This document shows, in pieces, positions 795-53,471 of a stretch of DNA of 58,922 bases. The stretch covers positions 1 to 58,922 of the forward strand of contig JACYMD010000017.1 in the NCBI GenBank assembly GCA_015272215.1. Reading direction: 5' to 3'. The notes below the pieces were generated by a model that was not told the DNA's origin, made no database searches, and saw only the letters and a program-made list of their open reading frames with translations. Positions within the stretch are counted from its first letter, which is position 1; every line of letters starts with the position of its first letter. The translations under genes and the position numbers were made by a program. This DNA is from Rivularia sp. T60_A2020_040 (lineage in GTDB: Bacteria > Cyanobacteriota > Cyanobacteriia > Cyanobacteriales > Nostocaceae).

Positions 795-1385
795 TTAAAA
801 TTTGGTAAGAATATAAAGCAGGGTGAAGAGTATAATCCAAATGATATCTACAAAGTGCCAGTAGATTTCTGCCATTTCGATTCCGGTGTGTTTGTGTTCG
901 TTATAATGTCCGGGGCGACGAGAACGCCATAATACACCTAAAATTAATAGGACTCCGATTAACACGTGTAAGCCGTGGAATCCTGTCATCAGATAAAAAC
1001 AGTTCGAGAATAAATTGGTACTCAATCCATACCCTAAAGTCAGATACTCATAAACTTGACCGAGCAAGAAAATTACTCCCATAATAGCGGTAATTTTGTA
1101 CCATTTCCGCATTCCTTGAACATCATTCTTTTTAATTGCAGAATCGCCGAAGTGAATTACAAAACTGCTGGATACTAAAATGATAGTATTGATAGTCGGT
1201 AACAATAACTCAACCTCGGTTCCTTGGGGAGGCCAAGTTGGAGTAGTTCCACGATAAAATAAATAAGTAGCAAAAAATCCGCCAAACATCAAGGATTCTG
1301 AAATTAGGAAAGTTATCAATCCTAAAACTCGTAAATCTGCATGTTCTTCGTGGTGTACTGGAGTTTTTTCTGTTGCGATCGCCAT
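795..1385 (-). CDS. coxC: cytochrome c oxidase subunit III
   Basis: This 196-residue protein is subunit III of an aa3-type oxidase. It has five hydrophobic segments, the motif GFFATYLFYRG after TM1, and the typical C-terminal stretch ending HFVDIIWIILFTLLYIL, with GFHGLHVLIG in the fourth helix. Length matches cyanobacterial CoxC. Subunit III stabilises the core and carries no redox metal. The gene is last of the conserved order coxB-coxA-coxC on the minus strand, 289 bp after the 3' part of coxA. With patB and fdxB next door it probably belongs to the heterocyst-specific oxidase (cox2 type), which removes oxygen to protect nitrogenase. The start MAIATEKTPV overlaps a HIP1 site. Confidence 0.95.
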   Translation of the reverse strand: MAIATEKTPVHHEEHADLRVLGLITFLISESLMFGGFFATYLFYRGTTPTWPPQGTEVELLLPTINTIILVSSSFVIHFGDSAIKKNDVQGMRKWYKITAIMGVIFLLGQVYEYLTLGYGLSTNLFSNCFYLMTGFHGLHVLIGVLLILGVLWRSRRPGHYNEHKHTGIEMAEIYWHFVDIIWIILFTLLYILTKF

Positions 1386-1674: not shown

Positions 1675-2409
1675 TTAAGCAGTAACTTCTGTGGAAGGCT
1701 TCAAAGGTTCACCTTCAGTAACGGTACCGTAATCATAAGGACCGTGGGTGACAATGGGTAATTCTGACCAATTTTCAATGGCAGGTGGGGAAGAGGTTGT
1801 CCATTCCAATGTCAGAGCATTCCAAGGATTATCACCGGCTTTTGCACCAGCATTCCAACTCCAAAGAATATTCAGAGTGAAAGGAATTACCGATATTGCT
1901 AATAAATAAGCACCGTAGGTACAAAGTTGATTGATAGCCTCAAATTGTGGATCGTACATGGCAACTCGACGCGGCATTCCTTGTAAACCCAATTCGTGCA
2001 TGGGTAGAAAGGTTAAGTTGGTGCCGATGAAGGTGAGGACAAAGTGAATTTTACCCAAAGTTTCATTCATCATCCTTCCCGTCATTTTGGGGAACCAATG
2101 GTAAATCGCAGCATAAATACCAAATACAGAACCGCCAAATAAGACGTAGTGGAAGTGCGCGACTACATAATAAGTATCATGAACGTGTCCGTCAAATGGT
2201 GCGGTACCCAAAGTAACTCCACCAATACCACCCAAAACGAACATCATTAATAAGCCAATGGCAAACAACATTGCGCTAGTATAACGGATTTTCCCTTGCC
2301 AAAGAGTTGCTACCCAACTAAATATTTTAATTCCTGTAGGAACCGCAACTATCAGGGTGGAGATGGTAAAAAACATCCGCATCCAACCGGGGGTTCCGCT
2401 GGTAAACAT
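1675..2409 (-). CDS. coxA: cytochrome c oxidase subunit I, 3' part of interrupted gene
   Basis: Carries the C-terminal 244 residues of CoxA, from MFTSGTPGWMRMFF onward. It contains helices VII-XII, including the heme ligand motif AHFHYVLFGG (fragment residues H85 and H87, which would be H394 and H396 in the joined protein). It has no start region of its own; the apparent ATG is internal Met310 inside the 15-bp repeat. Joining at 2404-2418 to the repeat at 4256-4270 restores the frame: GTT CAT CAT ATG TTT then ACC AGC GGA, read VHHMF-TSG. By itself this piece cannot make an oxidase. It is presumably expressed only after excision of the element. Confidence 0.95.
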   Translation of the reverse strand: MFTSGTPGWMRMFFTISTLIVAVPTGIKIFSWVATLWQGKIRYTSAMLFAIGLLMMFVLGGIGGVTLGTAPFDGHVHDTYYVVAHFHYVLFGGSVFGIYAAIYHWFPKMTGRMMNETLGKIHFVLTFIGTNLTFLPMHELGLQGMPRRVAMYDPQFEAINQLCTYGAYLLAISVIPFTLNILWSWNAGAKAGDNPWNALTLEWTTSSPPAIENWSELPIVTHGPYDYGTVTEGEPLKPSTEVTA

Positions 2410-2418
2410 ATGATGAAC
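2404..2418. repeat. attachment-site direct repeat, copy at coxA 3' part
   Basis: AAACATATGATGAAC, identical to 4256-4270. On the minus strand it encodes VHHMF, the CuB histidine pair of CoxA. The flanks differ on the element side (AGTTAAAA here) and match coxA on the other side, as expected for a site-specific recombination core. Confidence 0.93.
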
Positions 2419-2746
2419 AGTTAAAATCTTTAATTAGCAAAAGTTCAACGTTTATTTTTAAAACTATTCTCTATATCTTCCTTAAGTTTATATTTGAATG
2501 TTGTCTGTTCTCATTTAAATAAGGTTACTAATTAATAATTTGATTCACTATTTATTCCTTAAAAACAGATATTATTTTTCTTCTGTATTAATATAAACAA
2601 AAAACCTGAAAATTCTTCTTATTTTCAAGCCTTGTATCGTATATTTTAGAAGATTACGGATTTAAAAACCGCAGAGACGCTGAGAGCGCAAAGAAAAGAT
2701 AAGAGAGAGGAAAGTTTAGAAGGGGAAGGGAATAGTTTGATGTTGG
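2419..2746. other. AT-rich non-coding end of the coxA element
   Basis: No gene is visible between the attachment site and the recombinase stop codon. It is AT-rich and holds, at about 2651-2690, a ~40-bp repeat (AGATTACGGATT, then AAACCGCAGAGACGC) that recurs at about 13768-13800 beside the RND operon. That repeat is not specific to the element. Confidence 0.6.
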
Positions 2747-4141
2747 TTATATAATAATTTTATTTAATTTATAATTTTCTAGTTCTAAAGATAGAGATGC
2801 TACTTTTTTCTGTAAATAAATATTTTTTTCTCGAAGCATTTTCATTTCTTCTTTTTCATTTAAAGCTGTATTCATCGCTTTCTTACGATTTTCTAAGGAA
2901 AACCATTTTTGATAAACTTTAGTGTGCATTTCTATAGAATGCCCTAAATTATCTGCTGCTGCTTTAAGAGGTATCCCTTGTAAATGCGCTCTGATAGCAC
3001 AAGCATGGCGTAAATCATAAGGTTTAAATTCTAACCCAATTCTTTTAAACCATTGTGAATTTTTATCTACTATAATAGTCAATTGTGAAAAAGATTTTAT
3101 TTTATCAGTTCTTTGTTTAAGCATTTCCAGTGCCTTTTTATTTTTTAAATCAAATAGTTCAATCCATTCTGGCATAAAAGGTAATACTTCTCTGGCTCCA
3201 GTTTTATTGTCATTATGAACTTTCCAAGTATTATCTTTGTTATCTTCACTTATAAACCAATCAATATCAGGTTGGTTGAATATTTCTCTAGGACGCAATC
3301 CGTAATTAGCTATTAAACCGTAAGCCAATCTATATATTAAATAAGTATTCCAATAAGGATTCTTTTTGTGTTTGTTTAATTCGTAATATTTTTCAAATGT
3401 ATAAAAACCATCTATAATTACTTTATCTTGAGGAATGTCTCTTTTTTGAAGTATAATAGGGAGTTTTAACTTTTTAAAATCAATATCTATTTCTAAATGT
3501 TTACATATAATACTAGCTACTTTTATCGCTTGAAATCTTTTACTGCTAGAATCAATTTTACTCAGTGAAATTTCTAGATTGTTTTTATTCACAATTAAAT
3601 CAGATTTAAATTCTCTTTTAAAGACTTTTTTATATTCAGCAAAAGTATGTGCGCTTTTAATATCTCTTTTTCTTGTTTGAAAAAATATATCCTCAAATTT
3701 GTCATATATTTCTCCAAAATTTAGATCAATATTTTGAAAAGCTTTGCATCCTAAATATTTATCATTCCATTCAAAACACTTTCTTGATATTAATCTACTT
3801 AATTCATAAGCTTCTTCTTCTGCTGTTTTTAATCCGTCTAGGTTTGCTGGAATATTTAGGGATATTTGATACTGCTTTGTTTGTCTACCTTTTATATTCG
3901 TATCACCTGGTTTAAGTGGTAGTGTAGCCCGTAACTGTATTGCATTACCTTTCATTGTTAAGGAAACCTTTGCTTTCATTTCCTTAAGTCGCAAATTAGC
4001 TTCTTTTAGTTGTTCTTCTACTTTCATTCTCATATGTGCTTCTTGTTCTTTGGCTGCTTTGTTTATACCTAAGTAGCTACCGTCTGTGGTTGCTGATGAC
4101 TGGAAATCTTTAAATGCTTCTTGGTAGATGTCTGCTTTCAT
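2747..4141 (-). CDS. XisA/XisC-like tyrosine site-specific recombinase
   Basis: A 464-residue integrase-family recombinase predicted to cut and rejoin DNA at the 15-bp repeats flanking the element. Catalytic elements are visible: first Arg in YGLRPRE (R283), a likely beta-strand Lys (K313), box II written YDLRH (Y375, R378) instead of the usual HxLRH, GH at 400-401, and the nucleophile Y410 in TKVYQKW. Residues 40-60 and 425-460 look like coiled coils; 160-260 should be the core-binding domain. A Tyr in place of His in box II is, from memory, characteristic of the XisA/XisC group of heterocyst excision recombinases. The gene starts 72 bp after the truncated coxA frame stops, on the same strand, so it could be read by transcription from the cox promoter. 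It may also integrate. Confidence 0.9.
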   Translation of the reverse strand: MKADIYQEAFKDFQSSATTDGSYLGINKAAKEQEAHMRMKVEEQLKEANLRLKEMKAKVSLTMKGNAIQLRATLPLKPGDTNIKGRQTKQYQISLNIPANLDGLKTAEEEAYELSRLISRKCFEWNDKYLGCKAFQNIDLNFGEIYDKFEDIFFQTRKRDIKSAHTFAEYKKVFKREFKSDLIVNKNNLEISLSKIDSSSKRFQAIKVASIICKHLEIDIDFKKLKLPIILQKRDIPQDKVIIDGFYTFEKYYELNKHKKNPYWNTYLIYRLAYGLIANYGLRPREIFNQPDIDWFISEDNKDNTWKVHNDNKTGAREVLPFMPEWIELFDLKNKKALEMLKQRTDKIKSFSQLTIIVDKNSQWFKRIGLEFKPYDLRHACAIRAHLQGIPLKAAADNLGHSIEMHTKVYQKWFSLENRKKAMNTALNEKEEMKMLREKNIYLQKKVASLSLELENYKLNKIII

Positions 4142-4213
4142 TTGCTTTGATTCCCTATTTCTTCCCTAAATATATGTTTCAAGCAAACATTGTTTATCGC
4201 TTACAATGTTTGG

Positions 4214-5188
4214 TTAATAACAATTTAGGACTTTTAAAGTATCTAAGTCAATCAGAAACATATGATGAACCCATACGAACAAACCGACAACGCAAATTGC
4301 TAAACTAGAATAAGCAATTGCTTTATATCCAAATATTGGTTTACGTGCATGAACTGGAATTACTTCAGAAAGAATCCCGAAGATAGGCAGAATCATCAAG
4401 TAAACTGCTGGATGAGAGTAAAACCAGAATAAATGCTGATAAATAACTACATTACCACCTGCATCTGGTTTAAAGAAGGAAGTACCGAAGTTGATATCAA
4501 ATAACAACAGTACTAATCCAGCAGCTAATACTGGTGTAGAAACAAGTGCTAATAATGAAGTAGCTAAAATTGCCCAGCAAAATAAGGGTAATTCATCCCA
4601 CTTCATCGAAGGAACTTTCATTTTCCAGATGGTAACAACAAAGTTCAATGAACCCAAAATTGAAGAACTTCCCACCAATACAATGGCAAGAATCCACATA
4701 CTTTGAGCAGTATTCGCTGTTACCAAGCTCAAGGGTGGATAGGCTGTCCAACCAGATTGAGAACCACCAAAATAAAAACTACCTAAAATCAATGCACCAG
4801 CGGGTGGGTTTAACCAAAAGGCTACAGCATTCAGCTTCGGGAAAGCCATATCTCTAGCACCAACCATCAGCGGTATTAAATAGTTACCAAAGCCACCAAT
4901 GGCACTGGGGACAATCCATAAAAAAATCATGATTGTCCCGTGATTAGTCAGAAAAGCATTATACAAATTGGGATCGAGTAAATCTGCATCCGGTGTGGCT
5001 AATTCGGCACGCATAGCTACAGCCATCAATCCACCAATCAGATAAAAAATAAACGATGTCACTAGGTATTGGATACCAATTACCTTGTGGTCTACATTAA
5101 ACGTAAAATAGTGATACCACTTCCATGCTTGGGGATGAGCATGAGTAGCCACTTGAGTTGTATTTTGTGGATGTTCTAATTGAGCCAT
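4214..5188 (-). CDS. coxA: cytochrome c oxidase subunit I, 5' part of interrupted gene
   Basis: Encodes the N-terminal 311 residues of CoxA plus 13 residues read from the element before a stop. Visible ligands are the low-spin heme His in TNHGTIM (H83), CuB His and the cross-linked Tyr in SHPAVY (H259, Y263), and the CuB pair VHH (H308, H309). With the 3' part (1675-2409) the protein would be 553 residues, the usual length. Without excision the product lacks the HFH heme ligands and helices VII-XII and cannot be active. It lies 96 bp downstream of coxB on the same strand. The terminal oxidase reduces oxygen to water; the heterocyst-specific copy keeps the cell micro-oxic for nitrogenase. Confidence 0.96.
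   Translation of the reverse strand: MAQLEHPQNTTQVATHAHPQAWKWYHYFTFNVDHKVIGIQYLVTSFIFYLIGGLMAVAMRAELATPDADLLDPNLYNAFLTNHGTIMIFLWIVPSAIGGFGNYLIPLMVGARDMAFPKLNAVAFWLNPPAGALILGSFYFGGSQSGWTAYPPLSLVTANTAQSMWILAIVLVGSSSILGSLNFVVTIWKMKVPSMKWDELPLFCWAILATSLLALVSTPVLAAGLVLLLFDINFGTSFFKPDAGGNVVIYQHLFWFYSHPAVYLMILPIFGILSEVIPVHARKPIFGYKAIAYSSLAICVVGLFVWVHHMFLIDLDTLKVLNCY
4256..4270. repeat. attachment-site direct repeat, copy at coxA 5' part
   Basis: AAACATATGATGAAC, identical to 2404-2418. The outer side (CCCATACGAACA) continues coxA codons for VWV; the inner side belongs to the element. CATATG forms a palindromic centre, a plausible strand-exchange core. Confidence 0.93.
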
Positions 5189-5284: not shown

Positions 5285-6268
5285 TTATTTCTGAAGTTGA
5301 GTTAAAGTATCTGAATTAATTCCAATATCCGAACTGTAAGCAGCTAAATATGCGGATGGTGATAATTCTACGGGATTAACTGCAATTGTTGGTGATGATT
5401 TTTGTGCAATCCGGTTTTCTTGCAACCAACTTTGATATTCTTCGGGAGTCTCAACGATTACTTGACTCCTCATTGAACCGTGATAACCGCCGCACAATTC
5501 TGTACAAACTATAGGGTAAGTTCCTAGTCTAGTCGCGACAAATCGCAGTTCGGTAGCTATACCGGGAATTGCATCTTGCTTCAAGCGGAATTGCGGTACC
5601 CAAAATGAATGGATTACGTCTTTTGCGGCAATGTTCAACTGGATGTCGGCACCAATTGGGATATGTAACTCACCGGATGTGATGTTATCTTCGGGATAAT
5701 TAAAAATCCATGCGTACTGCATTCCCGTAACATCTACAGTTACTTCTGCTGCTTGATTCTGCTGTGCGGGTGAACCTTTAATTCCAATCTTTTGATTGAC
5801 AGACTGTGCTGTATCTGAGGATATGGTAGGAGCTTCACTAATCGTTGCTGCAATTGCACTTCCAGAATCAGAATTATTCTGAGTCTCAATTATTGCAGGA
5901 TTAGCTGACGGGAATCCTCCCATTTGCTTGTAAACATCGACGCTATAGATACCTAGAGCAAATACGATCAGAGTCGGAATTGCAGTCCAAAATATCTCTA
6001 AGGGTACATTACCTTCAATTGGTGGCCCGTCTGTATTATCGCCTTTACGCTGACGAAAATGAATCGCGAAATATAAGATAGTTCCTTCTACGATTAAGAA
6101 TAGAGCAATCGCGATAGCGAACATGACATTAAAGAATCCGTCTACTAAAGGTGCTTGTTCGGATGCTTGTATTGGTAATAGATTATGAGTTTGACTAACC
6201 CAGATACCTACAATTGTGACTAAAGCTCCAGCAACTAAAGTTAATAACGAAACAGGAATTTGTTGCAT
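5285..6268 (-). CDS. coxB: cytochrome c oxidase subunit II
   Basis: A 327-residue subunit II with the CuA electron-entry site. An N-terminal membrane anchor (about 8-26) and a second helix (about 45-70) precede a periplasmic/lumenal cupredoxin domain with HSFWVPQ (H220) and CTELCGGYHGSM (C255, C259, H263, M266), all CuA ligands. A low-complexity Ser/Ala-rich linker at about 125-170 is longer than in classical CoxB. First gene of the minus-strand coxB-coxA-coxC operon; a 320-bp AT-rich spacer separates it from fdxB upstream. It probably accepts electrons from cytochrome c6 or plastocyanin in heterocysts. Confidence 0.95.
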   Translation of the reverse strand: MQQIPVSLLTLVAGALVTIVGIWVSQTHNLLPIQASEQAPLVDGFFNVMFAIAIALFLIVEGTILYFAIHFRQRKGDNTDGPPIEGNVPLEIFWTAIPTLIVFALGIYSVDVYKQMGGFPSANPAIIETQNNSDSGSAIAATISEAPTISSDTAQSVNQKIGIKGSPAQQNQAAEVTVDVTGMQYAWIFNYPEDNITSGELHIPIGADIQLNIAAKDVIHSFWVPQFRLKQDAIPGIATELRFVATRLGTYPIVCTELCGGYHGSMRSQVIVETPEEYQSWLQENRIAQKSSPTIAVNPVELSPSAYLAAYSSDIGINSDTLTQLQK

Positions 6269-6882: not shown

Positions 6883-8003
6883 AATTGAACCTGTTAATAA
6901 TAGATATGCTTACATTGCTTGTAGCTTTCTTCTTAATCTTAAACCAAATTTATCTATTTTTATCTGGCGATAATCAAATGCTTTAAATCATAGACATTAC
7001 TTTTAATTTTAAAAAAATAAAGTATCAATTTTTGATTTGATATTATTCTTTTATTGCAACTAATTACTAATTTTTTCGAGTCTCTTAAGAGGTTAAAGTA
7101 TTACCATATAATCTTTTAAGCGATTTATACTTTTTTGTATAACTACAAAATATAAATTTATTTTTAAACCAATTATCTTATTTATTATCAAGAATCAGAA
7201 GCAAAAAAAACTTCCTATACGCAATTTAATATATGATAAATATTTTAATTAATGACATTATTTATTAATTGCTCAACAAAAGAAATTAAAAAAAAATCGT
7301 ATACATATATACAAAATATATTTTTGAACTTTTATCACTACAACAAAAGTGGTCAAATTATATTTAGCGCTCTTTTTACTAGTTATAGTAACTACAGTTA
7401 AGTATATATAATCAAGTTCAAATTAAACTTGAATGTTTTATGATATTTATTTTCCATTAACTATCTAAACTAGGATTTTTCTTTGCTACACAAATAATTG
7501 TAGAAAATACTGTTAATCAATAAATATTTGTAAATAGTTATTATCTAAAAAATTAAAAAAAACAAAAATTATGAAATTTATGTGAAGAGTATGTTAAGAT
7601 AATGAATAGACAAAAATATTTTTGAAAATAGCTTTGAAAAAATCTTGATATTATTAGTAATTGGTTTGTTCTTCGAGAACAGTTTAAAAACCACGAAGAT
7701 TTGAATATAAAAGGTATGAATGAATCTTTTATTAATAATATAAAAAACCTTCATAGCTCATTGCGAACAAAACTTTTTAATAACTTTATGAAAACTATAA
7801 ATAAGGAAGTTTTAAATATAGGCTCTGGTTAATACTTTTAATTAAGAGACCTATTCTTAATTGAAAGTACATATATAGATGTGAGTCAGTGCGATAAAAA
7901 GCCTTTATTTTTATCGTCAAGTGTGGTATTGAGCATATCTAAAAAACACATCTAGATAAGACTTGAGCCAAACGTCGCAAGAAGTTAAGTGGCACATAGC
8001 CTT
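6883..8003. other. 1.1-kb very AT-rich spacer between fdxB and patB
   Basis: No supported gene. The region is dominated by A/T runs and contains an exact GTA-N8-TAC match at 7299-7312. It presumably holds divergent promoters for fdxB and patB, and patB may have a long 5' untranslated leader. The end near 7860-8000 contains short open frames overlapping the patB start that I treat as spurious. Confidence 0.5.
7299..7312. promoter_or_regulatory. candidate NtcA-binding site
   Basis: GTATACATATATAC fits the NtcA consensus GTA-N8-TAC exactly. It lies 417 bp upstream of fdxB and about 690 bp upstream of patB, farther than usual, in very AT-rich DNA where chance matches are likely. NtcA control of heterocyst genes is established; use of this site is inference. 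Confidence 0.3.
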
Positions 8004-9593
8004 ATGCCTTATACAATTTCTAACAACAGTTGCGCTGGATGCGATAAATGTCGTTTTCAGTGTCCAACAGGTGCTATCAAAATCGACAATGGTGAATATT
8101 GGATTGACCCTCATTTATGTAACAATTGTGAAGGTTATTATTCCGAACCCCAATGTGTATCAGCTTGTCCGAGTAAGTCCCCAATTCCATTACAGGTAAA
8201 AAAAGGCAGGTGTAAAATTGATGATCGAGAATTGACTAGTTCAGATTTATTTTTCAATGGTAAGAGTAATCCATTTGCATCTGGTATTCCGATTTGGGAA
8301 GCTTGTAACGTGCTGTCTCAAAGGACATCTTTACCTTGGGAAATCGATGAAACTGATAAAGTGCGCTACGGCAAACAGATAAATCAGGGACGAGGAAAAA
8401 TTGCGTTTCACATCAACTCTTCTTCTGAAGTATACGAACTGGCAACAGATTTAGAAGTAGTGGAAGAACTTGATATTCGTGCTGCTTGCGTACATTTAAT
8501 TTTTGCTGCTTATGCGACATTTTCAGAAAAAGCTTGGCAAGAAGAGTTTGTTGTAGATGATAAACAAATAGAAAAATATTTGGGATTAGAGAAACGCAAA
8601 GATTTGAACAAAACGACAAAATTGGCTTTGATGAAAAGATTAGTCCAGCAAGCTTGTTCCTTACTTATTTCCATTGATTTACCACAACAAGGACGTTTAG
8701 AGCCAATTTCATTTGAAAAAACTTGCTTGTGGGATTTGATGGGAATCCAGCATCATTTCCAACAAGACGAACTAGGGTGTAAATATCTGATTGGTTTGAC
8801 ATTTAGAATCAAAGCTGGTGTTTGGGCGAAATATTTCTTAAATAAACAAGCCTGTAAAGAGCGTACAGCCTTTTATCAATATGGTAACTTGCCTAAATCT
8901 CTGCTGACTACAGTCATGAGTATCTGGCAACAGCATGAAGGTGCAGCACGGTTGATGATGTGGTTGATGTTCAAAACAAAAATGGGTAAACAACAACGGA
9001 TTACAATACCCACATTAATGCGCGTTGCCTATGGCGATCGCAAAGTGGCGATTGCTTGCAGACAAAGGGAAGAACGAAAGCGGTTGCTGCGAACATTTGA
9101 GAGTGATTTAGAAACACTGTCACATTATGGAATGAAACCGATTTTCGATCCGGTGAGTTATCCAGTAGAAATTCAACCATTGTGGGCTAAATTAGCCGAT
9201 ATTCCCGAAGATCCAGACGAAGCCATCGAATTTTGGATTAACGATGGTGTTGAAGGAAGACGTTTAACCGATGTCAGTCCCCGTGGTAAATGGAAAATGC
9301 TGATGAATGCGCGAATTTTATGCTTTGAACTTGCACCGCAATGGGATCAACCAAACCTCACAGCAAAGAAAAAACAGCAGCAAACCACTAAAAAAAGCAG
9401 AAAAATTAAAACAGCAGGTGGTTTGCTTGGGGAACAGATCCGTTTAGCCAGAAAAAATTTAAGTATTTCTCAAAGGGAACTAGCAAATCTGATGGGTAAA
9501 AGTCAAAGTTGGATTCGGGATATAGAAAATGGTCGTCTTAAAGTTAAATCAGAAGATCAGTTAGTTTTACGTAAAGTCCTGAGAATCGGTTAA
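8004..9593 (+). CDS. patB: heterocyst regulator PatB / CnfR (ferredoxin-HTH fusion)
   Basis: A transcriptional activator with an N-terminal ferredoxin-like domain (C10, C13, C16, C20 and C39, C42, C51, C55) that should hold oxygen-sensitive [4Fe-4S] clusters, a long middle region, and a C-terminal Cro/XRE-type helix-turn-helix (about 470-525: QIRLARKNLSISQRELANLMG). This domain order and length define PatB of Anabaena, also called CnfR, which turns on nif genes under low oxygen and is needed in heterocysts. I take the ATG at 8004 (MPYTISNNSC, 529 residues) over an in-frame GTG at 7989, because it sits directly before the first cysteine motif and gives the length I recall for PatB. The gene faces away from fdxB and cox. 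Confidence 0.93.
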   Translation: MPYTISNNSCAGCDKCRFQCPTGAIKIDNGEYWIDPHLCNNCEGYYSEPQCVSACPSKSPIPLQVKKGRCKIDDRELTSSDLFFNGKSNPFASGIPIWEACNVLSQRTSLPWEIDETDKVRYGKQINQGRGKIAFHINSSSEVYELATDLEVVEELDIRAACVHLIFAAYATFSEKAWQEEFVVDDKQIEKYLGLEKRKDLNKTTKLALMKRLVQQACSLLISIDLPQQGRLEPISFEKTCLWDLMGIQHHFQQDELGCKYLIGLTFRIKAGVWAKYFLNKQACKERTAFYQYGNLPKSLLTTVMSIWQQHEGAARLMMWLMFKTKMGKQQRITIPTLMRVAYGDRKVAIACRQREERKRLLRTFESDLETLSHYGMKPIFDPVSYPVEIQPLWAKLADIPEDPDEAIEFWINDGVEGRRLTDVSPRGKWKMLMNARILCFELAPQWDQPNLTAKKKQQQTTKKSRKIKTAGGLLGEQIRLARKNLSISQRELANLMGKSQSWIRDIENGRLKVKSEDQLVLRKVLRIG

Positions 9594-47046: not shown

Positions 47047-48204
47047 CTAGTTTTTCCATTCGACAATAACCTCCTTTTTCGGATCAAAAATTAAAAGTTT
47101 CAACTGATACTTAGATACCAATAGTGGTAAATATTTGAACAGATCGTCTAAAACGCTATTGGCTCCAATCATTCCCCAGGAACTAATCCAGGTATCGCTA
47201 GAAACTTGATAAATCCTATCTTCCCGTACAGCTTCTAATTGTAACCACAATGGATGATTAGTAAATTGTTTCAACTTCGATGGATTATGTTCTCCTAGAA
47301 TCAAAAAAATTACATCACCTTCTAATTGCGGAATAAATTCTAGGGAAATATTTTCGCTATTTTTATCTTTATCTTGATAGCTAGGACGAGGTAAGCCGAT
47401 TTCTTTAATAATTGAACCAGCAAAAGAATCATTCATGTAAATACGAGTATAGTTATTCCAAAAATTCACTAAAGATACTTGAGTCTTAGAAAGGTTATTA
47501 CCCATTTTTTGACGTACAGTAATTATCTTTTGGTCGTAATCTTTTAGTAACTTTTCTGCTGTTTCCGTTTCACCTGATGCTTCTGCAAATTTTGTCAGCC
47601 ATTCTTTCCAATTCTTATCTCCATCAGCCAAAACTGTTGGTGCAATTTGAGATAATTGCTGATATAAATCGGCATCCCAATTAAGTCCTAAAATTAAATC
47701 GGGTTTAAGATATAAAATTTTTTCTAAATTGGCACTACCATTAACACCAACTTTTTGAACTTCTTCAGTTTTTGATTGCAGATAACTAGGATATTGGTCG
47801 TAGAGTAAAGTAGTGGCTGCTATTGGTTTGATTCCTAAAGCCAAAACATTATCTAATCCACCTAAGACAACTACTCGTTTGGGATGTAAAGGTACTTTGG
47901 TTTCACCCATCGCGTGTTTTATAACTCGCGTTTGTGAAGTTATATTTTCAGAATTTGAACTGATATTTTTAGAAGTACTAACTCCACAGCCAATAATAAT
48001 TAAAGCTGTGATGATACTGAATAAAATTAATTGGATTTGACGAGAATTAAAAATAGGAGTGAAAAAACTCCGCGTGACTCCGCGTTTACCTCCGCGTCCC
48101 TTTTGTCTTGAAAAGTTGTTTATGGGGGAAACCCCCAAGACCACACTTTTCGCTGCGTTAAAAAACATAATATAGCTACTACTAATAATAATTAAATTTT
48201 CCAT
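47047..48204 (-). CDS. FecB-type ferric-siderophore-binding lipoprotein
   Basis: A 385-residue periplasmic binding protein of the FecB/FhuD-like class. The lipobox LIIIGCG is at about residue 70, followed by the metal-binding domain with PKRVVVLGGLDNVLALGIKPIAA and a C-terminal SSWGMIGANSVLDDLFKYL. The N-terminal ~60 residues (up to NSRQIQ) are read from repetitive DNA, and the real start may be the ATG at 48168 or an unusual codon nearer the signal. The gene is the last of a minus-strand group (MFS exporter, sucrase/ferredoxin-like, FecB). Confidence 0.88.
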   Translation of the reverse strand: MENLIIISSSYIMFFNAAKSVVLGVSPINNFSRQKGRGGKRGVTRSFFTPIFNSRQIQLILFSIITALIIIGCGVSTSKNISSNSENITSQTRVIKHAMGETKVPLHPKRVVVLGGLDNVLALGIKPIAATTLLYDQYPSYLQSKTEEVQKVGVNGSANLEKILYLKPDLILGLNWDADLYQQLSQIAPTVLADGDKNWKEWLTKFAEASGETETAEKLLKDYDQKIITVRQKMGNNLSKTQVSLVNFWNNYTRIYMNDSFAGSIIKEIGLPRPSYQDKDKNSENISLEFIPQLEGDVIFLILGEHNPSKLKQFTNHPLWLQLEAVREDRIYQVSSDTWISSWGMIGANSVLDDLFKYLPLLVSKYQLKLLIFDPKKEVIVEWKN

Positions 48205-50503: not shown

Positions 50504-50915
50504 TTATGGCATTGAATTTTTGAGATTTTTATTATTCAATAAATATTTTTCTAAATCATCTAAAATTGCATTTGCTGAGAGAATATTGCCAAATATCCAG
50601 TAACTTGAATCAACAGTATATACTTGGTTATTTTGTACAACATTCAGCTTTTGCCATAAAGAACTATTTTGGTATTTCTGGAAGTTTTCTTCTGCTTTAT
50701 AGTCTAATGCTGCAAATAAAATATCTGCATCAAATAAATCTATACGTTCTAAACTTACTGATACATAAGGATAGCCTGAAGTATTAGTAATTTGACTTTG
50801 TTTTTCTGGAATAGATAGTCCCACTTCTGAAAGAACGCTGACGGGAAATGAAAATTTGTTGCGAAATTCTGGGATTCCTCCGGGTGCATAAAAGCGGGTG
50901 ACAGTAACTGTTTTT
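50504..50915 (-). pseudogene. 5'-deleted FecB-type binding protein gene
   Basis: The last ~136 codons of a ferric-siderophore-binding protein: FYAPGGIPEFRNKFSFPVSV, IDLFDADILFAALDYK, and SSYWIFGNILSANAILDDLEKYL. It lacks the signal and first lobe. The sequence upstream reads directly into the 3' part of the TonB receptor gene in another frame (50784-51362). The fusion point near 50905 shows a deletion. It cannot encode a functional binding protein. The paralogue at 47047 is intact. Confidence 0.85.
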
Positions 50916-53334
50916 AAAAGCGCGATCACGACTTCCAACATATAATGCTTGTAGTCGATTGCTCCATCCCGGTAACGTTTCATTCTCCACATATGCTGTA
51001 AGTTTCAAAGGTGAAACTTCATAACCAGTAATGGCAACAAATCCACTTTCTTCTGATTCTTCCCGGTCTCCTTCACTCCAAGTTAATGTACTTCCCAATT
51101 TCCATTTGTCGGTTGGTTGCCAATCTACTGCTAATTCAACACCATAATTACGTTGGGGAGAACGTAAAATACTAAAACGACCAGTGTTAAAGTCTTCAAA
51201 TCGTATTGATGATCCTAAAGCTGAATAACTGTAAAATCCTGCCAGAGAAGCTTGAAGATTGTTCCACCGTCCGCGAATTCCCAATTCGTAACTATCGACT
51301 TTTTGAGGTGCCGATAGTTCCACATCTTCAGCAAAATTGAAGCCATCTTCAGGACGCTGCAATATGCGTGAAATATTGGGAAGTGAAAATCCTTGAGCAA
51401 AATTAGCAAATACACTTACTTCTGGGGTGGCTCTATAAACTACACCAGCATTAAATACTACATCATCTAAGGTTTTTTCCCCACCTTGAGCAGATGCTCC
51501 ATTTCTTCCATCAACCCAATTATCGATTACCGATACGTTGAAATTTTCGTAACGGACTCCACCACTAAGAGATAAACGTTCGCTTGCATCCCACTTTAAC
51601 TGAGAGAATAAACCTAAGTTTTCGATCTCAAAAGGTGCTCACCACCGAACGACCAACATCTAAGGGACTGTTGGGGCTAAATATACGGTTATCGAAAAGA
51701 CCAGCAGCAGTTTTTGTTTGACGGTAATAAGCTTGTGCTTTGAGGGAACTGTTGAGAATATCGTTGTGAGTGTAGTCGAGACTAATCACAGTTCCTCGGT
51801 TAAAGGGGTCGCCAGAATCAATAAAATCAATTGGTGTATCTAGAAAACGTGCTTTTTGGATATCTTCTCCAGGAGTCTCATCTAACTGTCCCTCTTGACT
51901 TTGAGAATCATTAAAATGGTTTGCACTAATTTGCAATCGCTGTTGCGAACCTAGGTCAACACCCAGCTTACCAAAAACGTTGATAGAAGCACTATCTGCT
52001 TCCGAGTCAGCAATCAAAGGAATGCGATCGCCTTCAGCATCAAATGGTGTTCCAAAACTATCACGAGTTAAATATGCTACAAAATCTACATCTCCTTGCT
52101 TACCGGAAAACCCGTAGTTAATAAAGTTGCCAAAACTACCAGATTTGAAGTTACCAACAGAACGTACTCCAATTTCTGCTTCGGACATAACTCTGTCTTG
52201 GTCAGGCTTGCGGGTAATAATATTAATTACTCCACCCGCAGCTCCATCACCATAAGTAGCACTTGGTCCCCTAATTACTTCTATACGCTCAATTGCCGCA
52301 GGATCAATCCGACGTAAATTTGCAACTGAGGTATCATTATCGATATTCGAGGTAATTGGTACCCCATCTACCAATACTAAAGGTGGTCTTCCTCGCAAAT
52401 TCTGAGTAAAACTTTGTTGTGATTCAGAACTTGGGCCTAAACCAGGAACTGTATTAGCAAGTATCGATGTTAGATCGCGATTAACAGTAGTTTGCTCCTC
52501 AATTTGTTCGCGGGTTATTACCGTCACCGAACGCGGTACTCTCTGCACATCTTCTTCAGTACGTGTGGCACTCACTATCAATTCAATCGGCTCATCTTGC
52601 GCTGGTTTTTTTGATGGAGTTTCACTTGTAGTAGGCTTCTCTTCTTCTGGTTTTGGAGTTGGGGTTTGTGCGGTAGAAGCAGTAGGTGCTAACCCAAAAA
52701 TCAAACCTTCCCCGCTGTCGAACAACTCAATTTTTGGTAAACCAGTCTCGCCCTTGACTGCAATTCTGACGGTATTTTTATCTAAATTAGTTACCGTAAT
52801 TTCAGTAATTCCCTCAGTTGGTTTTTCTTGAGTAAATTTAAACGCATCTCCGGTCGCTTGTTGCAGTTGAGCATTAGGAATATCGGCAATAAAATCATTA
52901 CCACTGCTGCGATTTACTACCTGTAACTGTCTTGCTTGAGATGTCTGCAAGATTATTTCCAAACCTTTATCTGTGGAGTTGGTTTTAACTCCCGTGATTG
53001 GTACAATACTTCCTTGAGAAGGTGTTGGAGTTTGTACCAACATTTGAGCGCTGGTTGCAGGAAATTCGATTTCGCTGAGTTGGAGAATATTTTTACCTGC
53101 TTGATCCAACTTTATCCTTTGTTCCGAACTTGTTATTGAAGACTGAAAATTTCGGCGTATCGGAGAACCCAGAGATTTATTATCTGTAACAGCAATCTTG
53201 TTACGTACTCCAGATTTACTGATTCTATCTTTTTGTAATTCCTCACTTTTAGCAGGAGTACCAATTAAAAAAACAATCGCAGTTGTGAGCAGCAGGCTTT
53301 GAAACAATTTATCTAACTTCATTAATCTTCTCAC
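50906..53334 (-). pseudogene. TonB-dependent siderophore receptor, frameshifted and 3'-truncated
   Basis: Encodes a receptor with N-terminal signal, AMIN domain (about 105-215), and plug (about 250-365: SVTVITREQIEEQTT, RGRPPLVLVDGVPI, IERIEVIRGPSATYGDGAAG). The first frame ends at 51628; the rest of the barrel continues from about 51626 in another frame (EIENLGLFSQLKWDASERL) after a +1 shift in a TTTT run, which is open to about 50906. The C-terminal ~100 residues are replaced by the FecB remnant. It therefore has two lesions and is probably inactive. The AMIN-plug arrangement is common in cyanobacterial receptors. Confidence 0.88.
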
Positions 53335-53471
53335 ACCAAATAATAATACTTACTCGTAATCAGCCACACAGTAGATGCTCAAACAATTTTTTCGGACTCT
53401 AAACTACAGTCTTATTAATAACTTTTATCAGTAATTCTACAGTAAGCGAGGGGAAAACTGAAGCTCGGAAT

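Follow-up and report, generated by a model that had tools for sequence, protein, structure and literature searches.

Near one end of a 58,922-nt stretch of Rivularia sp. T60_A2020_040 (contig JACYMD010000017.1, positions 1 to 58,922; hereafter the window), the heterocyst-type oxidase gene coxA2 lies in two parts on the minus strand. Between them, on the same strand, is a putative excision element at codon 308, spanning 2404–4270 with both of its terminal repeats (unit, 1,852 bp). The repeat is a perfect 15-bp direct repeat, AAACATATGATGAAC, at 2404–2418 and 4256–4270, 1,852 bp apart start to start. On the gene strand it reads GTTCATCATATGTTT and encodes Val-His-His-Met-Phe. The 5ʹ part of coxA2 (codons 1–311; 4256–5188) terminates in one copy, and the 3ʹ part (codons 307–553 plus the stop; 1675–2418) starts within the other. 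Deletion of one unit leaves 554 codons, stop included, for a 553-residue CoxA with no internal stop codons that matches the uninterrupted homologue of a relative, G006, at 95% across residues 1–552. An earlier, sequence-only reading of this DNA had described a coxA gene split by 1,852 bp between perfect repeats, a continuous 553-codon gene on removal of one unit and recombinase-only content, and had proposed aligning the joined protein with intact homologues; on all of these points our analysis agrees with it.

The sole substantial open reading frame (ORF) within the element is xis (2747–4141), which encodes a 464-aa recombinase. The remaining ORFs (30–80 aa) overlap xis or span an element end, and the element, with its single gene, contains no structural, replication or transfer genes. 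The description of the element as one of the smallest imaginable was an overstatement. In a survey by Hilton, Meeks and Zehr (2016; PMC4874684), elements start at 1.3 kb. Furthermore, the same genome has elements of similar size, with one recombinase gene, in nifK (repeat spacing, 1,764 bp) and nifD (~1,755 bp).

The window is AT-rich and contains 21 repeated 15-mers spaced 1–3 kb apart, in about four families, one of which is the element repeat. Hence, repeat length alone is weak proof. Chance is nonetheless excluded, because the repeat falls exactly at the reading-frame junction, has two copies in the whole 6.02-Mb genome and occurs in the identical place in four relatives.

The product of xis has a PHROG match to integrase and a match to Pfam Phage_integrase that is below the curated cut-off (24.2 vs 27.1 bits). 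Residues R283, K313, R378, H401 and Y410, taken to be catalytic by the XerD and lambda motifs, are invariant in all 13 aligned recombinases. In the structure model (predicted local distance difference test, pLDDT, 81; predicted template modelling score, pTM, 0.48, which leaves the placement of the domains uncertain), residues 59–119 form an N-terminal three-stranded sheet with a helix; the other parts are a helical region for core binding and the catalytic domain. Its top structural matches are XerA and lambda integrase, the latter over 373–389 columns with modest TM-scores of 0.37–0.41 (on the query). The protein is 45–50% identical to the recombinase of the widespread nifD form. With this XisA-related tyrosine recombinase as its one gene, in a cox2-type gene whose interrupted reading frame is under strong selection, the proposed kinship with xisA/xisC-type elements holds up. 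A phage source was considered and rejected: there were zero phage matches and three weak plasmid matches at ~28%. A distant relative of the recombinase (33%) lies near a ParA-like gene elsewhere (G000:C46:16255–17547; L006, L014), with no nitrogen-fixation gene seen beside it.

Synteny identifies the surrounding genes as a cox2-type operon. Grouped with the split coxA2 are coxB2 (5285–6268, minus strand), coxC2 (795–1385, minus strand), a gene for nif-specific ferredoxin III (TIGR02936; 6589–6882, minus strand) and a plus-strand gene (7989–9593) for a CnfR/PatB-like ferredoxin-helix-turn-helix regulator. This is presumably the counterpart of the Anabaena coxBAC2/patB (cnfR) neighbourhood. A HetR-family match is present in the genome. 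Far from this operon, positions 50787–53349 encode a TonB-dependent receptor across two overlapping frames (plug and barrel), suggesting a frameshift.

Is the interrupted gene still in use? The genome has two further, intact coxA loci. One, on contig C25, is of coxA1 type, with neighbours that we recognised by eye as CtaA and CtaB. The other, on C12, has two small membrane-protein genes and then coxB ahead of coxA; we type it as coxA3 because this order fits alr2729-alr2730-coxB3-coxA3-coxC3 of Anabaena (PMC6616624). Expression of Cox2 and of the coxA3 oxidase of Anabaena is reported to be confined to heterocysts and to be essential for diazotrophic growth (PMC6616624). The intact coxA3-type gene could supply heterocyst respiration. 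The sequence-only reading had named a second intact coxA locus with the heterocyst function as a threat to its own proposal, and half of that threat is real: the intact gene is there, and heterocyst-only expression is reported for its Anabaena counterpart (PMC6616624). The insertion might then be dead, with coxA2 a pseudogene, the element never removed and coxA3 doing the work. Such a view draws on the intact coxA3-type and coxA1-type loci and on the assembly, in which neither an excised chromosome nor a circle junction is present and the core is found only twice.

The pattern of substitution argues strongly against a dead insertion. Among the genomes that carry the element and G006, pairwise ratios of nonsynonymous to synonymous divergence (dN/dS) are 0.012–0.057 for the 5ʹ half of coxA and 0.014–0.067 for the 3ʹ half, that is 0.01–0.07 with silent divergence reaching ~0.8 per site, including in the part beyond the cut. 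For xis, dN/dS is 0.10–0.30, and both core copies are preserved letter for letter in all five carriers. Left out of the comparison were, for G007, the 5ʹ half, where the frame breaks; for G003, the 3ʹ half, which is interrupted once more; and, for both G003 and G004, the codons before ~90. By this measure of sequence change, both coxA2 halves are under strong purifying selection. Since the 3ʹ half, beyond the interruption, is constrained as much as the 5ʹ half, an intact gene must be in use somewhere. A dead coxA2 is ruled out by dN/dS, and we regard the dead-insertion account as a whole as highly improbable. The frame break in G007 (Richelia sp. SL_2_1; L091:4772–4814) lies near coxA residues 178–191, where the matches overlap, and could be a small duplication or an assembly error.

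The core site is constrained at the level of nucleotides. Its spelling, GTTCATCATATGTTT, is found in both copies in 5/5 carriers and in none of the 22 coxA2 genes that are uninterrupted at codon 308 (20 family genomes, G005 and G006), where there are seven other spellings. Among the carriers, silent variation occurs in 102 of the 184 amino-acid-invariant coxA codons; the longest invariant run among the 215 codons compared is 26 nt, and it contains exactly the joined core. The His pair of the core ligates CuB. The confinement of the core spelling to carriers is a sequence-based signature that excision matters. It also bears on the idea that the two halves of coxA2 are made as separate polypeptides that assemble, which would make excision unnecessary. 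The 3ʹ part does have an in-frame ATG within the repeat. Separate polypeptides would leave unexplained both the nucleotide-level locking of the two repeats and the upkeep of the recombinase, and we give this idea almost no credence.

The element has a narrow distribution. In a search of 217 family genomes (cut-off E 1e-139), recombinase matches at 83–95% were limited to four genus-mates, Plectonema cf. radiosum LEGE 06105 (G001), UBA3308 (G003), Rivularia sp. MS3 (G004) and Richelia sp. SL_2_1 (G007); the next best match was 54%. With the window included, the codon-308 element is present in 5/8 genomes of the genus, at the same codon and with the identical 15-bp core, and repeat spacings across the carriers are 1852, 1897, 1994, 1838 and 1897 bp. 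The three non-carriers are G006, in which coxA2 is intact, G005, in which it is cut at codon ~92 only, and G002, a genome 84% complete in which coxA2 was not found. Outside the genus, 72/82 family genomes (32/38 and 40/44 in two sets) have an uninterrupted, near-full-length coxA2 match of at least 82% identity; in the 44-genome set, coxA2 counts come from the matches listed, and coxA3 splits there could be missed. Elsewhere among the 82, coxA2 is cut at codon ~92 within one contig in G039, G055 and G082, and with its parts on different contigs in G019 and G026; in G014, coxA2 is broken up over separate contigs; G034 and G079 yield no closer uninterrupted coxA match than 71–73%; and coxA2 was not found in G031 or G088. 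Because most outside-genus genomes have an uninterrupted gene and the relative G006 an intact one, the insert is not needed for regulation. For the same reasons, and with an intact coxA3-type gene in the genome itself, we do not support the suggestion that the element serves to keep the oxidase silent in vegetative cells.

How long has the element been resident? In the more distant pairs, silent-site divergence of xis is on a par with that of coxA (dS of 0.77 for xis vs 0.81–0.84 for coxA between the window and G004, and 0.52 vs 0.56 between the window and G003), as expected for an old resident element. The three closest carriers (L091, L092 and window 2750–4141) depart from this pattern: xis dS is 0.07–0.09, vs 0.26–0.30 for coxA and 0.23–0.30 for coxB, and fourfold-site differences are 6–8 of 114–115 in xis and 21–24 of 113–137 in coxA. 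These low values argue against purely vertical inheritance. fdxB fourfold differences are also low among the closest carriers (0–1 of 34). Recent exchange of the element among close relatives may account for the low xis dS, or silent xis sites may be constrained; the roughly threefold lower silent divergence of xis is a hint of movement between close relatives. The coxA of G004 is closer to that of the element-free G006 (dS 0.28–0.43) than to that of the window. Hence, the element was lost from G006 or acquired by G004, and we lean towards the former.

Besides the two cores, the element contains three direct copies of TTWAGGRAKAWATAGNGAAT, one just ahead of xis and two close to the far core. 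We propose that these are arm sites like those of lambda integrase, bound by the N-terminal domain of the recombinase. The predicted left arm site (4150–4169) consists of tandem half-sites with an 11-bp period and lies just upstream of the xis ATG; the right arm sites are R1 (2543–2562) and R2 (2466–2485), 77 bp from R1, and all three are on the minus strand. With up to three mismatches allowed, the arm pattern has four matches in the window vs 0.46 expected, three of which are the element arms. All five carriers have recognisable arms, and the nifK element of the same genome and the coxB element of MS3 share the layout with arm sequences of their own. For a wider test, we took 78 recombinases and set aside five whose flanks were too short and 20 loci of the widespread nifD type, which left 53. 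The layout was defined as a left site 18–32 nt before xis and right sites 76–81 or 87–93 bp apart. It is present in 28/53 loci, spread across 16 of 29 recombinase clusters, vs 6/530 Markov-shuffled ends, a contrast that is somewhat flattered since the spacing windows were picked after the first results. Autocorrelation of the arms at 11 bp is 0.51, vs 0.26–0.34 at other spacings.

Several observations on the arms weigh against this proposal. In UBA3308, where arms are least recognisable, the left arm is rearranged and R1 has four mismatches; 25/53 loci lack the layout; real ends of different elements, when cross-paired, have it in 122/530 cases; and by raw score against cross-pairs, 7/73 loci lie beyond the 99% level. 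Cross-pairs often have the layout because arms resemble each other across lineages (a family consensus). This makes cross-pairing unsuitable as a null, and we therefore took Markov-shuffled ends instead.

The arms covary with the recombinase. In a comparison of 16 lineages, the similarity of arms rises with the identity of the N-domains (r=0.50, permutation p=0.001); the relation to the core-binding region is weak (r=0.23, p=0.05), and there is none to the catalytic domain (r=0.105, p=0.20). Classic nifD elements have comparable sites: a tandem arm-like site precedes xis in 5/6 loci, and all three elements with the far core in hand have an arm match of 16–17/21 at 81–103 bp from that core (background maxima within these elements, 14, 15 and 12). 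A second far-end arm was not found in the three classic nifD elements with both ends. The three sites might also be repeats of an operator or promoter that a host regulator recognises, as the position of one of them directly upstream of the xis start would suggest. We consider this unlikely, given that the other two are found past the end of xis, close to the far core, that each lineage has its own arm sequence, which changes with the recombinase N-domain, and that the three classic nifD elements, long or short, have an arm-like match at each end. Our literature search, in which older papers are sparsely covered, found no earlier description of XisA-type arm sites.

Upstream of the left arm site are three adjacent TGT-N9/10-ACA sites (4175–4222, minus strand; N10 at 4207–4222, N9 at 4191–4205 and 4175–4189), which are VF1/NtcA-like in that we take TGT-N9/10-ACA to be the VF1 consensus. 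A fourth is at 2584–2599. Across 33 lineages, TGT-N9-ACA occurs upstream of xis 28 times, in 20 lineages, vs 1.8 expected; control spacings N8 and N11 gave 0 and 1. Since the left arm site and the three TGT-N9/10-ACA sites precede xis, its expression probably depends both on binding of the recombinase and on a nitrogen regulator, for which NtcA, a reported activator of xisA, cox2 and cox3 (PMC3898017), is a candidate. The trigger need not be heterocyst differentiation: the same excision could be stochastic at a low level or answer another cell type or stress, and Hilton et al. discuss non-heterocyst triggers for some elements (PMC4874684). We think such a trigger quite unlikely here, with the host cox2-type operon beside genes for nif-specific ferredoxin III and a CnfR-like regulator, sibling elements of the same genome cutting nifB, nifD and nifK, and VF1-like sites ahead of xis.

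Together, these observations make it very probable, in our view, that coxA2 is interrupted by a self-encoded XisA-type excision element, a long-resident passenger most likely removed in the developing heterocyst. In the mechanism that we propose, the tyrosine recombinase would bind both 15-bp cores, and its N-terminal domain would contact the three internal arms, one left and two right. A 1,852-bp circle would be cut out, and the single remaining repeat would restore the His-His codons of CoxA2. Excision would most likely take place in the developing heterocyst, where coxBAC2 is used, and vegetative cells would retain and transmit the interrupted copy. The element would be tolerated since coxA2 is needed only in terminal cells; it would be a passenger, perhaps still exchanged between close relatives, and not a required switch.

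Beyond the intact coxA3-type gene, the missing excised form and the low xis dS of the closest carriers, some further results fit this interpretation less well. The non-coding parts of the element contain zero ORFs of at least 30 aa wholly inside, and a separate directionality factor is not evident. The first His of the H-x-x-R box is replaced by Y375 in 13/13 aligned recombinases. Three of the five carriers are closely related, which weakens the contrast in core spelling somewhat. TGT-N10-ACA is not enriched upstream of xis in the 33 lineages (4 vs 2.0 expected), and the canonical NtcA box GTAN8TAC is absent before the window xis and not enriched in those lineages (1 site).

The codon-308 element is one of several in these operons. 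In MS3 (L088:3725–12010), three small elements, two of tyrosine and one of serine type, cut coxB (codon ~190) and coxA (codons ~91 and 308). In UBA3308 (L085/L086/L087), cuts at codons ~92, 308 and ~393 divide coxA into four pieces, of which the last lies on a different contig, so that the far end of the third element is not seen. The codon-92 elements carry serine-recombinase-like genes (Pfam-confirmed for MS3 only), and a repeat search found no clear core repeat at these codon ~92 sites; other elements are of tyrosine type. Thus coxBAC2 of one genus is hit at four positions (coxB ~190; coxA ~92, 308 and ~393) by two recombinase classes, which makes it a non-nitrogenase hot spot for developmental DNA rearrangement. 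Nitrogenase genes of the Rivularia genome are also interrupted. Recombinase-bearing interruptions lie in nifB, nifD (codon ~85) and nifK (G000:C106 and C56), and nifD is cut again near its 3ʹ end, with that recombinase on another contig. nifH is split as well (G000:C106:21564–21962 and 47528–47962; L164, L165), with residues 1–133 and 129–273 separated by ~25.6 kb; by eye, the genes in between look like heavy-metal efflux genes, and a serine recombinase at the junction is cut to ~80 residues. An uncut nifH above the curated cut-off was not found in this genome, a third full-length match (C92) being below it.

How does the codon-308 element compare with known systems? As the sequence-only reading noted, coxA insertions have been listed: Hilton et al. 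report three coxA elements in three variants, including a coxA3 element of Calothrix PCC 7103 and a coxA element of nearly 1 Mb in Calothrix PCC 6303 (PMC4874684). As in those, a heterocyst-type coxA is cut by a recombinase-bearing element between direct repeats; the window element differs in lying at codon 308 of coxA2. The nearly 1-Mb element appears to resemble the cut in G055, where 984 kb separate the halves of coxA2 at codon ~92. With the coxA2 cut on record apparently at codon ~92, the one at codon 308 appears unreported. A literature search by title or abstract start found no other paper on a coxA element, and the main text of PMC6616624 has no mention of "excis" or "interrupt".

Domain by domain, the window recombinase presumably corresponds to integrases of the lambda/Tn916 type. 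Like them, the window element has core sites and, as we predict, arm sites, and the Xis model has an N-terminal three-stranded sheet plus helix; unlike those systems, it has no evident directionality factor or phage genes. The nifD element with XisA, sited near the nifD 3ʹ end, has a related tyrosine recombinase and an arm-like tandem site near xis. That element has its own core, target and arm sequence, one far arm found, and often a length of ~10 kb or more. The small elements of the genus in nifD (codon ~85), nifK (codon ~90) and nifB (codon ~69) are of similar size and have recombinases of the same family, but these form separate lineages, each tied to its own target where identifiable. 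In G040, the His-His-Met codons of a coxA3-type gene are likewise interrupted (core, CACCATAT; spacing, 2,242 bp), by an element with xis in the opposite orientation and an independent recombinase lineage. In our recombinase tree, a quick search with several long branches from which 16 near-identical nifD recombinases were left out, a common origin of the G040 element and the codon-308 clade was rejected (p-AU, approximately unbiased test, 0.006; long branch).

For the XisA type at large, including the classic nifD elements, we give about an even chance to a broader model: recombinases would be lambda-like and heterobivalent with 11-bp tandem arms, the arm at the xis start would couple binding to expression, VF1-like sites would link excision to nitrogen status, and separate lineages would have converged on the active-site codons of the oxidase. 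Through the arm sites, both mechanism and directionality of XisA-type excision become open to direct experiment, and the 1.85-kb system is small enough to be transferred whole into E. coli. XisA-type elements are known, the site at codon 308 appears new, and the arm anatomy may apply to the whole XisA type.

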